A DNA stretch of 35,782 bases from assembly GCA_947458335.1 (NCBI GenBank), contig CANGYW010000006.1, forward strand, positions 1-35,782, written 5' to 3'. The notes beneath the pieces are model-generated. The model saw only the letters and a list, made by a program, of their open reading frames with translations, was not told the DNA's origin and ran no database searches. Shown here one piece after another: positions 26,764 through 33,175 of the stretch. This DNA comes from Chitinophagaceae bacterium (GTDB lineage: Bacteria; Bacteroidota; Bacteroidia; Chitinophagales; Chitinophagaceae). A program made the translations under genes and the position numbers. Each line of letters opens with the position of its first letter. Position 1 is the stretch's first letter.

Positions 26764-29529
26764 TTAGAGCGTTCGTTTTACTTCTTCTATTTCGTAGGCC
26801 TCTACCACATCGCCTACTTTAATGTCGCTAAAGTTCTTGATGGTAAGACCGCACTCCATTCCGTTGAGTACCTCTTTGGCATCATCCTTAAAGCGCTTGA
26901 GCGATCCCAATTCTGCGACCACTCCTTCGGCCGTGGGATAGACCACGATACCATCGCGGATCAGGCGAATCTTTGAATCACGCTTGATCTTTCCGTCGCG
27001 TACAAAGCAACCTGCCACTGTAGCCTTATCGAACTTGAACACCTCTCTGATCTCCACATTGGCCACGATCTTCTCTTGTGTCTTGGGTTCGAGCATTCCC
27101 TCCATGGCATTCTTGACTTCTTCGATCGCATTGTAAATGATCGAATACATCTTGATCTCGATACCAGCGTTTTCGGCCAGCTTCGATGCTTGCAGTGAGG
27201 GGCGTACATTAAACGCGATCACAATTGCATCAGAGGCTTCTGCCAGCACAATATCACTCTCGTTAATCTGTCCTACTCCTTTATGAATTACATTGACCAG
27301 GATCTCTTCGGTAGAAAGTTTTTGCAATGAGTCACTCAAGGCCTCGACCGATCCATCCACGTCACCTTTAATTATAACGTTAAGCTCCTTAAAGCTGCCG
27401 AGTGCCAGACGACGACCAATCTCGTCGAGGGTGATATGCTTTTTGGTACGTATACCTTGTTCGCGCAAGATCTGGGCACGACGATTTGCAACCTCTTTGG
27501 CTTCTGATTCGTCTTCGTATACCTTGAATTTTTCTCCGGCCTGGGGAGCACCATTCAATCCTAAGATAACAGCCGGTGCAGAAGGACCCGCTTTGGTCTC
27601 TTTTTTATTGCGCTCATTGAACATGGCCTTTACACGACCATAGAACTGACCACTGACTACCAGATCTCCGGGTTCGAGCGTACCGTTCTCTACCAGTAAG
27701 GTAGCCACAAAGCCACGTCCCTTATCGAGTGAGGCTTCGATAATGGTACCCGATGCTTCGCGATCGGGATTGGCCTTAAGATCGAGCATCTCGGCCTCGA
27801 GCAATATCTTCTCTAACAGCTTATCGACATTCAATCCTTTTTTAGCCGATAACTCTTGGCTTTGGAATTTACCACCCCATTCTTCGACAAGCAGATTCAT
27901 TTGCGAAAGCTGCTCGTAGATCTTTTGGCTATTGGCACCGTCTTTGTCGATCTTGTTAATGGCAAATATCATGGGTACACCGGCCGCCTGTGCGTGGCTG
28001 ATTGCCTCACGCGTCTGTGGCATCACCGCATCGTCCGCTGCAATAACAATCACCGCAATATCAGTCACCTTGGCTCCACGAGCACGCATAGCCGTAAAGG
28101 CCTCGTGACCGGGCGTATCCAAAAACGTGATCTCTCTTCCATTGGGGATCGCCACGCGATACGCACCAATGTGCTGGGTAATACCTCCGGCCTCACCTGC
28201 TACTACATTGGCACTGCGAATGTGGTCTAGTAGCGAGGTCTTACCATGGTCTACGTGACCCATGATGGTAACGATCGGAGAGCGAGGTTGCAGATCTTCA
28301 TCGTCATCTTCGTCATCGCCATCCGTTTCCATCTCCATCTGCTTCTCCATATCAATAAACTCTACAATAAATCCAAATTCACTGGCTACCAGCTCGATTA
28401 CTTCGGCATCTAATCGCTGATTGATCGACACCATGATGCCCAGACTCATACACTTGCTAATCACATCAGCAAAGCTTACATCCATAAGACTGGCTAATTC
28501 GCTAACACTGATAAACTCAGTTAGCTGCAGCTTGTTGTCATCGACCGCTTCGCCCATGGCCTCGGCCATTTCTTGACGTTTCTCACGACGCAGTTTAGCT
28601 TTAACGCCTTTTCCTTTTCCGGTTCCACCACCACTTAACTTGGCTTGCGTTTCTTGAATCTTGCGCTGAATTTCTTTTTCATCGATCAGTTTATCCTCGC
28701 GCTTGGCACCACGAGGTTGCGGCCTAGCACCGCCTCTTCCACGATTAAACCCACCACCGGTTCTGCCATCTTGATCTTTATTGATAAAGATCTCGCGGTG
28801 AGTAGTATCTTTTTTGGCGATCGGAATCCGTTTACGCGGTTTCTTTTCGTCTCGTACCGGACGAGTCTCGCTGTCGGTAGGCAGATCAATCTTACCCAAG
28901 ATCTTGGGACCCGATAATTTTTCGACCTCAATATTTTCAATAACAGGAGGAGCTTCTTCTGCAGGCGCTGCTTCGGCTGCGGGAGCCGGCACTTCCTGTG
29001 GAGTTGCTTTTTCTTTTTTTGACTTAGCAGGCTTTACTTCTTCGGCCGCTTCTTCTTTTTTAGCCTTTGCACCTCTCTTTGGACGGGTTGATGAATCGAT
29101 GGCATCCAAATCGATCTTTGTTACCACCTTTGGCCCTTCAAGTTCGGGCGCCTCTGCTTTTACCACAGCTTCGGGAGCTGCGGGTGTTGTCTGTGCAGGG
29201 GTCTCTGCAGGTTCTTCTTTCTTCTTTGATGCTTTACCAGCAGAAGGTTTATCGGCCGCTTTAAAGGTAATCTCTTCGTCCTCTTTCTTTTTGCGAGCCT
29301 CGCCCTGAGCAGACTTAGGAAGTTCGAGCTGGTCACTCTTCATCTTGGCGACCTTATCGCTCTGAAACTCCTGCTGCAGTGAGCGGTACATGTCTTCCGT
29401 TAATTTAGACGTCGGCTTTAGTTCGTCTTTGGGGAAGCCCTTTGCAACTAAAAAGGCAATAAGGGTATCCTGACCAATGTTGAACTCTTTGGCCGCTGCC
29501 AGTAATCGGGGAAGTTTTAATTCTGCCAT
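26764..29529 (-). CDS. infB: Translation initiation factor IF-2
   Basis: [40 protein letters not shown]; long A/E/K/P-rich N-terminal linker. Confidence 0.98.
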
Positions 29530-29574: not shown

Positions 29575-30822
29575 TTATTCCTTTTCAAATTCTGTCTTCA
29601 GCACTTTTCTGAGATCGTTGATGGTCTCTTTTTCGAGATCGGTACGACGCTCTAATTCATCGGCGGTAAGATTCAACACACTGCGAGCCGTATCACAACC
29701 CACACGCTTAAGCTCATCAATTACCCATCCGTCGATCTCGTCACTAAATTCTTCGAGGTCGATATCAAATTCTTCTTCGTCACCTTCGTTATCGCGATAT
29801 ACGTCTAGTTCGTACCCGGTAAGTTCAGAGGCCAGCTTAATGTTGACCCCGCGACGACCGATCGCCAACGACACCTGATCGGGAGCCAAATACACATTGG
29901 CATGTTTACCCTCGGTATCTAATTCCATACTCGTAATACGAGCGGGTGTAAGTGAACGCTGAATCAGTAACTGCGTATTCGCTGTATAATTGATAACATC
30001 GATATTCTCATTCTTAAGTTCGCGCACGATACCATGAATACGACTTCCTTTCATACCCACACAGGCACCCACCGGATCGATACGATCGTCGTACGATTCT
30101 ACAGCTACTTTAGCCCGCTCTCCCGGATCGCGTACGATCTTTTTTATCACGATTAGGCCATCGAAGATCTCGGGCACCTCTATCTCCAGCAACTTGGCCA
30201 GAAATTCAGGAGCCGTACGAGATAAGATAATGACAGGATTATTATTCTTCATATCGACGCGTCTGATCACCGCGCGAATACTCTCGCCTTTCTTAAAATA
30301 ATCTTGCGGAATCTGCTCGCTCTTGGGGAGGATCAGTTCATTGCCTTCTTCGTCGAGCAATAAGATCTCTTTTTTCCAGACCTGGTATACTTCGGCGCTA
30401 ATAATATCGCCTACACGATCACCGTATTTTTTAGCCAATGCATTTTTCTTTAGATCGCTAATGCGGCTAGCCAGGGTTTGTTTAGCGGCTAAAATGGCAC
30501 GACGACCGAAATCGAGCAAGTCGATTTCTTCGTAGAGTTCTTCGCCCACTTCGAAGTCGGGTTCAATCTTGGCCGCTTCGCTGTAACCCACCTGCGCCAA
30601 CGGATCTTCTACCTCGCCGTCTTCAACGATCATCCGGCGACGAATGATCTCAAGGTCACCCTTTTCGGCATTAACGATAACGTCGAAGTTTTCGTCGCTT
30701 CCGTATTTTTTTCTGAGCAAGGTCTTAAATACATCTTCTACCACTTTCATCATGGTAGGCCGGTCAATGTTTTCCGCGTCTTTGAAGTCCTGGAAAGCAT
30801 CAATTAAGTTAATACTGGACAT
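29575..30822 (-). CDS. nusA: Transcription termination/antitermination protein NusA
   Basis: S1/KH organisation; VGACVGMKGSRIHGIVREL, APDQVSLAIGRRGVNIKLAS; acidic C-terminus. Confidence 0.97.
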   Translation of the reverse strand: MSSINLIDAFQDFKDAENIDRPTMMKVVEDVFKTLLRKKYGSDENFDVIVNAEKGDLEIIRRRMIVEDGEVEDPLAQVGYSEAAKIEPDFEVGEELYEEIDLLDFGRRAILAAKQTLASRISDLKKNALAKKYGDRVGDIISAEVYQVWKKEILLLDEEGNELILPKSEQIPQDYFKKGESIRAVIRRVDMKNNNPVIILSRTAPEFLAKLLEIEVPEIFDGLIVIKKIVRDPGERAKVAVESYDDRIDPVGACVGMKGSRIHGIVRELKNENIDVINYTANTQLLIQRSLTPARITSMELDTEGKHANVYLAPDQVSLAIGRRGVNIKLASELTGYELDVYRDNEGDEEEFDIDLEEFSDEIDGWVIDELKRVGCDTARSVLNLTADELERRTDLEKETINDLRKVLKTEFEKE

Positions 30823-30849: not shown

Positions 30850-31320
30850 TTAAAATTTAATTTGAATTTTTGTCGCTTTTATTTCCGAGAAGGGGATCAC
30901 ATGGGTATGTGTCTCCATCTTTTTTCCTTTTCCTTTTGTTTCTGTCAACTCAATCTGTGTATCACCCACCACCTGCAGCACCCCTTCTTTTTTGGCTCCA
31001 TCCACTAAGATCACTTCGACCGGCCGACCCATGTTTTTAACGTATTGGCGGTGCAGTTTTAGCGGCTCATCAAGTCCGGGCGAAGAGAGCTCCAGCGAAA
31101 AATCACCATTTGGAAACACCCCCTCTTCTTCGAGCTGACGGTAGAGCTTTCTGTTATATGAAACTAATTTATCAACACTAACTCCTTGATCTCCATCAAT
31201 ATAAATCTTAACATTGTTGGTCGGCTTTATCCGCACCTCTACCACAAAAAGGTCTCTTTCGGCCCCGATCAGGGCGGCCGCACGCTCTTGTAGGTTGGTT
31301 ATCAATGCTATCTGATCCAT
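30850..31320 (-). CDS. rimP: Ribosome maturation factor RimP
   Basis: VEVRIKPTNNVKIYIDGDQGVSVDKLVSYNR, LELSSPGLDEPLK; upstream of nusA-infB as expected. Confidence 0.95.
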   Translation of the reverse strand: MDQIALITNLQERAAALIGAERDLFVVEVRIKPTNNVKIYIDGDQGVSVDKLVSYNRKLYRQLEEEGVFPNGDFSLELSSPGLDEPLKLHRQYVKNMGRPVEVILVDGAKKEGVLQVVGDTQIELTETKGKGKKMETHTHVIPFSEIKATKIQIKF

Positions 31321-31324
31321 AGGT

Positions 31325-31356
31325 AAAAAGAAGAAGGGAACGATTTCGTTCCCTTC
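31325..31356 (-). terminator. Hairpin plus U-rich tract immediately upstream of rimP (attenuator or terminator of the upstream gene)
   Basis: Minus strand: GAAGGGAACG-AAAT-CGTTCCCTTC perfect 10-bp stem followed by TTCTTTTT, ending 5 nt before the rimP ATG. Confidence 0.75.
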
Positions 31357-31373
31357 CTACTTCGATACAGGTA

Positions 31374-31405
31374 CAAAAGTAAGCTAATCGGGCCTTTTTG
31401 CCAAA
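31374..31405 (-). promoter_or_regulatory. Bacteroidota-type promoter for rimP-nusA-infB (TTTG-N20-TACTTTTG)
   Basis: On the minus strand: TTTG GCAAAAAGGCCCGATTAGCT TACTTTTG, upstream of rimP. Confidence 0.7.
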
Positions 31406-31420
31406 AGAAAATTGAACCCC

Positions 31421-33175
31421 CTATTTGACCCTTTCAAAGAGCAACTCGGGCTCGTTGGTAGTAATAAAGTCGAAACCCTGCTCTAAAAACCAGTCCAACA
31501 AGGCCATGTCGTTTACCGTCCATGCGTTTAAGACCAGCTTTAGCCGCTTGGCCTGAGCGATCCAATCGGGATTTTTTTGAAAGACCGAAAAATTATAGTC
31601 AATCCCGTCTATACCATCTTTTGCGACCTGTTCTGGCGAGCGGTCTCCGTTCAAGTAATGTGCTTTGGCCTTTTTCTGACGTTGCTTTAAAACGAGCAGC
31701 TGGTCATAATCGAAGCTGATATACTCGGTGTAGGCTTCTACTCCCGCCTCTTGCACAGCACGGAGTACCGACTGGGCTATGAGATCACGTCGTTCGGTAG
31801 TCTTAGTGTCGGAGGGTTTTATTTCTAGAATCAAACGAGTAGTTGGCTTGTCTTGTTGCCCCGCTTTTAAATACGAAGACAAAGTCGGCAATACCTCTCC
31901 ATTAGGTAGTGGCTGCGCAGCCAGCACTGCATAGGGAGTGGCTTCGATTAGCATACCTTGGTAATGCGCATCATGATTGACCACCAATATGCTGTCGGCC
32001 GTCATGCGCACATCAAATTCTGAACCCGCACAATTAAGCCGAATGGCCTCACGCAGCGAAGCGATGGAGTTTTCGGGGAATCCGTTTTTCTTAAAGGCCC
32101 CACGGTGCGCAATAACAGGATTAGGCATAAACGTAAGTTGACTTCGTTTGATAGTGTAAGAGCTGCGTGAATTGTTCATTTCGTCGATCAGCTCAAGCTC
32201 AATAACCGGATCGATATCCCAACGTATCGTTATCAATCCGATATTATTTTCCATAATCGGGCCTTCGATGCGGTTACGATTGGGGGTGGCAAAATCCCAT
32301 ACCGAAGTAATGCCACTCGAAGTAATATCGTAGAGCGGATACATACCCGGTGAACGCAGCCGCGAGATCTCTCCATAGTGTACATCGCCTGTTAAAAAAA
32401 GGACCCCCTCCGCCCGGGTATCACGAATCAAGCGACAGAGCCGTTCTTGCTCGTGAGGATAATTGGCCCAGGCTTCGTACCCGTTGAACTCAATGCCAAA
32501 CTGCGATCCGCTACAAATAAGCCGTAGATCGGCCGGTTGTCGCAGCTGCTCCTCAAGCCATTGCCATTGCTGTTCTCCCAACAACGTACTGTCTTTGTTG
32601 GTGTGTGGCTTATAATCGAGCGGATAAAAATATTTTTTTCGGGGTAATACCGCCGTTGAGTCATAGAGCAAAACGTTTTCGCGAAACGTACGATTATCAA
32701 GTAAAATAATCTGCACCCTTCGATCGCCCACCTGTAAGTACTCGACGTGATAAATTCCTGGGTGCTTTCTTCTTTCGCTTTGTATCGGTTCTTTAAAAAA
32801 ATCGAGAAAGATGTTTTTTGATTCTTCTTTATAAGGATAATGCCGGCCCGCATCGTTGCGCCCAAAATCATGATCGTCCCAGATGGCTAGCAGTTGGGTG
32901 GCCGCGGCCAGCTGCTTAAACTCCGGCTTGGCTCCCCAGCGTTGGTACTTAGCCCGCAGCGTATCCATGTTATCGGTATCACCATATATATTGTCGCCCA
33001 AAAAAATAAAGCGATCTGGATTATAACCGGCCGCCAGCTTAAGCAGCGGCTGCGGACGGTCTTGATGAGCACAAGAACCAAAGGCAATACGGGTAATTTG
33101 TGCTGTGGCAGATAAAACAAGCATCAATATTAGCATTGCCCAGAGCCCTACCCGTACTATAATCTGCTTGACCAT
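31421..33175 (-). CDS. Secreted fusion protein: PhoD-like phosphatase + glycerophosphodiester phosphodiesterase
   Basis: Signal peptide (LSATAQ); PhoD motifs FGSCAHQD, FLGDNIYGD, IWDDHDFG, TGDVHYGE; then GDPD motifs IAHRGAFKKNGFPENSIAS, SEFDVRMTADSILVVNHD, LEIKPS, NAWTVND in the same ORF. Confidence 0.92.
   Translation of the reverse strand: MVKQIIVRVGLWAMLILMLVLSATAQITRIAFGSCAHQDRPQPLLKLAAGYNPDRFIFLGDNIYGDTDNMDTLRAKYQRWGAKPEFKQLAAATQLLAIWDDHDFGRNDAGRHYPYKEESKNIFLDFFKEPIQSERRKHPGIYHVEYLQVGDRRVQIILLDNRTFRENVLLYDSTAVLPRKKYFYPLDYKPHTNKDSTLLGEQQWQWLEEQLRQPADLRLICSGSQFGIEFNGYEAWANYPHEQERLCRLIRDTRAEGVLFLTGDVHYGEISRLRSPGMYPLYDITSSGITSVWDFATPNRNRIEGPIMENNIGLITIRWDIDPVIELELIDEMNNSRSSYTIKRSQLTFMPNPVIAHRGAFKKNGFPENSIASLREAIRLNCAGSEFDVRMTADSILVVNHDAHYQGMLIEATPYAVLAAQPLPNGEVLPTLSSYLKAGQQDKPTTRLILEIKPSDTKTTERRDLIAQSVLRAVQEAGVEAYTEYISFDYDQLLVLKQRQKKAKAHYLNGDRSPEQVAKDGIDGIDYNFSVFQKNPDWIAQAKRLKLVLNAWTVNDMALLDWFLEQGFDFITTNEPELLFERVK

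Follow-up and report, generated by a model that had tools for sequence, protein, structure and literature searches.

The window, by which we mean the whole stretch of 35,782 nucleotides analysed, carries the genes rimP, nusA and infB as an operon on its minus strand. The operon is preceded by a short leader containing a promoter, a hairpin and a T-tract, and upstream of these lies a PhoD-GDPD gene in the same orientation. In the direction of transcription, the features are:

31421..33175, minus strand: PhoD-GDPD fusion gene, context outside the element (Pfam PhoD and GDPD)
31402..31405, minus strand: TTTG, -33 element of a sigma-ABfr-type promoter (sequence; relatives)
31374..31381, minus strand: TACTTTTG, -7 box of the form TAnnTTTG (sequence; 54 order and genus relatives)
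31331..31358, minus strand: putative terminator hairpin of 12 pairs, the inner 10 perfect, loop AAAT (sequence, folding, 32 same-genus genomes)
31325..31332, minus strand: U-tract TTCTTTTT, end of the putative intrinsic terminator (sequence; 52 of 54 relatives)
30850..31320, minus strand: rimP, ribosome maturation factor, first gene after the leader (Pfam RimP_N and DUF150_C over cut-off)
29575..30822, minus strand: nusA, transcription elongation/termination factor, the proposed sensor (Pfam NusA_N, S1 and KH_5)
26764..29529, minus strand: infB, translation initiation factor IF-2 (Pfam IF-2, IF2_N and GTP_EFTU)

Bacteroidota promoters are known to carry TTTG at -33 and TAnnTTTG at -7 (PMC7366714), and both elements of this sigma-A promoter are present in the window. 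As the earlier note had it, TTTG (31405-31402) and TACTTTTG (31381-31374) are separated on the minus strand by a 20-nt spacer. The -7 box was mapped to -12 to -5 in Flavobacterium psychrophilum (PMC9723704); placed likewise, the box here predicts a start site for the rimP operon near 31369 and a leader of approximately 49 nt. Of 54 relatives from the order and genus, 52 have a perfect TAnnTTTG ahead of the hairpin, against 4.3% expected from shuffling, and 36 have TTTG 19-21 nt 5' of the -7 box. The distance from box to stem is near-constant across the 54 rimP leaders (median 16, interquartile range 15-17), and promoter box, hairpin and T-tract follow one another in the same order throughout these relatives.

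The hairpin core consists of GAAGGGAACG (31356-31347), the loop AAAT (31346-31343) and CGTTCCCTTC (31342-31333), which two weaker outer pairs lengthen to 31358-31331. The perfect 10-bp hairpin with an AAAU loop and a following U-tract is thus present as first described, with one small correction: the U-tract is separated from the rimP ATG at 31320 by the 4 nt ACCT, rather than by 5 nt. Folding energies are -24.6 kcal/mol for the leader region of 81 nt (z = -4.0, equalled by none of 200 shuffles) and -18.1 kcal/mol for the hairpin by itself (z = -4.9). The T-tract is interrupted, which counts against reading the element as an attenuator. A hairpin of at least 7 bp with 4 GC and a T-tract, within 90 nt upstream of an open reading frame, was then sought ahead of all window ORFs of at least 150 aa and in dinucleotide shuffles of the rimP upstream regions. 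Among the 31 such ORFs only rimP has one; across genus and order, 53 of 54 rimP genes do. Any such hairpin occurs in just 1.1% of the shuffled regions, none of which attains the observed median score.

Comparison of the rimP leaders of relatives, proposed in the earlier note as a check, revealed that the hairpin is kept in both genus and order. GAAGGGAACG-N3-5-CGTTCCCTTC lies ahead of rimP in 32 of 35 same-genus genomes, which are all those with the region assembled. In two of the three exceptions the contig ends inside nusA, while the third genome is 76% complete and yielded neither rimP nor nusA; assembly accounts for all three, and the lack of rimP in them carries no biological weight. The palindrome AGGGAACG-N-CGTTCCCT is likewise present as a single copy per genome in 32 of the 35, and at each locus examined it lies 33-36 nt ahead of rimP. 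Both hairpin arms are identical across the 32 genomes, among which RimP identity falls as low as 49%, and the loop varies both in sequence and in length (3, 4 or 5 nt). Because the arms are invariant, no compensatory stem changes are found among these 32 genomes. In other genera of the same family, GGGAACG/CGTTCCC precedes rimP in seven of eight copies. Matches to this motif outside the family were discarded as due to chance, RimP being nearby at 0 of 20 loci.

A near-perfect palindrome just downstream of a promoter, fixed in sequence within the genus and occurring once per genome, could in principle be a DNA operator for a dimeric repressor. A loop that varies from 3 to 5 nt within the genus is more readily explained by an RNA hairpin than by an operator of fixed spacing. 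Stems that covary between families, a T-tract lying on the rimP strand and the restriction to one site per genome also speak against an operator, which we regard as barely credible.

The earlier note offered as a fallback that the hairpin merely terminates the PhoD-GDPD gene, which would leave it no regulatory role for rimP. That gene is indeed on the same strand, with its stop codon 100 nt upstream, and a scan of the window listed no other terminator in between. However, the gene is found approximately 100 nt upstream in only three of 30 same-genus loci; in a further three a GDPD homologue lies 400-530 nt away, and in 24 there is none in the upstream stretch examined. The hairpin keeps a fixed position relative to rimP and its promoter instead, with the rimP promoter box upstream of it in all 54 loci (52 of them perfect). 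The fallback is therefore largely refuted, and very improbable as an account of the hairpin. The neighbouring gene joins a PhoD-like phosphatase domain and a glycerophosphodiester phosphodiesterase domain in one protein of 584 aa (31421-33175, minus strand). At two loci (L010 and L011) the PhoD and GDPD parts match in separate stretches.

Beyond the genus, a hairpin followed by a T-tract occupies the rimP leader in all 22 further order genomes, which represent 21 other families. Their stems are typically GAGGGGAC/GTCCCCTC and mostly of the GGGG/CCCC type; others have AGGGAAGC/GCTTCCCT or GGGGGC. Of 57 other genomes of the class, 31 contain a single copy of GAGGGGAC-N-GTCCCCTC. All 19 copies whose position was checked (12 from the sequence around them and seven from listed rimP coordinates) lie just upstream of rimP; a lone copy in another class is unrelated. 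Since MAFFT aligned only the 3' arm of such short hairpins, the count of base pairs was based on an alignment anchored at the stem. With 42 sequences anchored on their C-run, hardly any variation is seen in the inner GG/CC pairs or in the A-T pair that encloses them, while the pairs flanking these covary across families, from GC to AT to CG or TA. Compensatory changes in the stem, which the earlier note had named as a test, are thus found at this depth. The hairpin scan rewards pairing, so percentages of pairing are partly a product of its construction; covariation and sequence identity are not. When the strongest hairpin was chosen regardless of T content, 52 of 54 relatives still had at least six T in an 8-nt window after it.

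Stems differ in sequence or are inverted in the phylum's other classes, so recognition of the sequence by one conserved protein surface is not established. Four loci from these classes (L150, L164, L171 and L173) have two tandem terminator-like hairpins before rimP, one resembling GGGGGC/GCCC and the other CGCCCG/CGGGCG. This recalls the tandem arrangement of the Gammaproteobacteria, but the order of the two polarities is reversed.

A switch based on an RNA antiterminator was ruled out, as only about 15 nt separate box from stem and a 5-nt complement to the 5' arm is found in 0 of 54 leaders. With no alternative pairing available in any of them, sensing would have to be performed by a protein or by the polymerase itself.

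Hairpins at the 5' end are able to stabilise mRNA, and one close to a start codon might control ribosome access to rimP. In favour of such a role after transcription, the stem in this genus keeps a near-constant distance from the ATG, ending 10-15 nt ahead of it, within a ribosome footprint. Neither function would need the T-tract that directly follows the hairpin in nearly all cases, however, and elsewhere the distance to the start codon ranges from 4 to more than 40 nt among families (a single value of 126 is probably due to a misassigned start codon). Given this range, the suggestion that the hairpin sequesters the translation start is not supported as a conserved function. In addition, one family (f52) has the element before nusA rather than rimP. 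We consider a post-transcriptional role improbable.

Family f52 appears to have lost RimP altogether, which is notable in itself. A RimP_N match over the curated cut-off is absent from 39 of its 40 genomes. The sole match (G415:C71:2512-2724) is on a contig other than that of nusA; the genome shows 5% contamination, and the match may well be a contaminant. The RimP C-terminal domain is likewise absent, at cut-off, from four f52 genomes and from G327, a genome of a different family. Where rimP is missing, nusA is the first gene of the operon (L183-L186 and L194-L219 in f52, L187 in G327). Of 29 regions upstream of nusA in f52, at least 21 contain a GGGC/GCCC hairpin with a T-tract, nearly all of them 8-20 nt after TAnnTTTG, and no shuffled region scores as high. 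Three more hairpins with a longer loop were recognised by eye (L183, L195 and L199); in a few of the other regions the nusA start is poorly placed, and these were counted neither way. G327 has a TATATTTG box, a hairpin and T6 before its nusA. As promoter, hairpin and T-tract are retained at nusA without rimP, the element follows nusA (or infB) rather than rimP. RimP was accordingly rejected as the sensor.

Taken together, the conserved order and spacing of promoter, hairpin and T-tract, the compensatory changes across families, the confinement to this operon, the absence of a neighbouring PhoD-GDPD gene in most relatives and the lack of alternative pairing in the leader uphold the idea of a promoter-proximal intrinsic attenuator. 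On these comparative grounds the element is very probably a regulatory terminator close to the promoter. The fuller reading, an attenuator in the leader of the rimP-nusA-infB operon that responds to NusA, is likely. RNA polymerase would start near 31369 and transcribe approximately 13 nt before making the GC-rich hairpin and the U-tract. A fraction of polymerases would stop at the U-tract and free an RNA of approximately 45 nt, the rest reading into rimP-nusA-infB. Abundant NusA would stabilise the complex paused at the hairpin, increasing termination and thereby lowering expression of its own operon, while scarce NusA, or NusA titrated by rRNA antitermination complexes, would raise read-through. 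We infer that termination at the leader occurs and is partial in vivo, and that NusA is the quantity sensed. NusA as sensor is supported indirectly, by published work in Bacillus subtilis, Escherichia coli and Streptococcus agalactiae and by the retention of the element at nusA without rimP. By analogy with these systems, feedback by NusA through the leader is reasonably likely.

Attenuation might also be real and the signal something other than NusA, such as IF-2, the state of ribosome assembly, NusG or the transcription rate, or the element might terminate partially and constitutively, holding expression at a fixed level. IF-2 is encoded downstream of NusA in the same operon of the window. 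Because the two travel together, comparison cannot part NusA from IF-2, nor from a fixed throttle, which a leader without a sensor domain makes possible. Published evidence favours NusA: feedback by it is documented at the equivalent B. subtilis leader (as reported through PMC12288461), and genetic evidence for it exists in E. coli (Bylund 2011, as cited in PMC4448216). RimP as the sensor is disfavoured by the rimP-less family. We judge a signal other than NusA unlikely overall.

A stronger version of the NusA-responsive attenuator holds that NusA or another factor recognises the stem itself by its sequence, within a dedicated NusA-sensing attenuator shared by Bacteroidota, Firmicutes and Proteobacteria whose stem varies by lineage. 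The near-invariant AGGG/CCCT arms, the single site per genome and retention through the loss of rimP would fit this. The near-invariance of the AGGG/CCCT core may reflect sequence-specific recognition, a minority reading that we put forward only tentatively.

Attenuation in the rimP leader is ordinary in kind; what is new is its breadth, the stem sequence and the rimP-less cases. A switch of the same kind is known in E. coli and Bacillus and hardly described in Bacteroidota, and NusA autoregulation through termination in the leader is understood in few bacteria. Here the leader is conserved across a large class whose promoter is unusual and which mostly lacks Shine-Dalgarno sequences. With approximately 50 nt, one hairpin and no antiterminator, it offers a minimal system in which to study how the level of NusA determines termination. 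The rimP-less lineage shows that the element belongs to the control of nusA (or infB) and not to RimP feedback.

The closest known system is the rimP-leader attenuator of Firmicutes and Gammaproteobacteria (Naville and Gautheret 2010), an intrinsic terminator in the rimP-nusA-infB leader. It is defined by a GGGc/gCCC stem and a T-stretch, located 4-130 nt before the gene with no antiterminator, and its motif was not found at other genes (PMC2965389). No word beginning with Bacteroid appears in the text of that paper. The window hairpin also lies in the rimP-nusA-infB leader and within 4-130 nt of the gene. Its 5' arm is G-rich and its 3' arm C-rich, followed by a T-stretch, and there is no visible RNA antiterminator (0 of 54 leaders). 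Unlike GGGc(...)gCCC, the stem is GGGAACG/CGTTCCC in the window and GGGGAC/GTCCCC in most of the class, and only about 13 nt of RNA precede the hairpin. A GGGC/GCCC stem is seen both in the related family f52 and in E. coli, where GGGCTTTAGGCCC-T7 lies just before the rimP start. The rimP leader of Rfam (RF01770, 102 positions) has the same gene context, yet it has no match in the window and none over cut-off in 61 order genomes; at E-values up to 10 its matches are scattered and all under cut-off. A search of the window with all Rfam families at lenient E-values gave only chance matches on the hairpin. Because the Rfam rimP model misses them, the Bacteroidota leaders would close a gap in that database.

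Experimental precedents come from three bacteria. In B. subtilis, NusA is reported to stimulate intrinsic termination in the ylxS-nusA-infB leader (Mondal 2016, via PMC12288461 and PMC6200986). The same operon thus carries an intrinsic terminator in its leader, established by experiment there and predicted from sequence here; the B. subtilis leader, at approximately 180 nt (PMC2965389), is longer than the predicted 49 nt or so of the window. In E. coli, feedback by NusA was found by genetics (Bylund 2011, as cited in PMC4448216). In S. agalactiae, RNA-seq revealed intrinsic termination 31 nt after the start of rimP-nusA-infB, and its stimulation by NusA was inferred (PMC4448216). The window leader is similarly very short, though it belongs to another phylum and promoter class and its termination is predicted rather than seen by RNA-seq.

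Within the Bacteroidota, rimP and nusA receive no mention in the main texts of two B. thetaiotaomicron transcriptome papers. In F. psychrophilum, of the same phylum, a structured 5' element without an Rfam hit was reported at the same gene, rimP, and is kept in Flavobacteriaceae. It is presented among structured leaders, the main text giving neither a mechanism nor a link to the rimP-leader family (PMC9723704). The window element is a Bacteroidota version of the rimP-leader attenuator as judged by gene context and architecture, and is called a variant because it matches neither RF01770 nor the literal GGGc motif.
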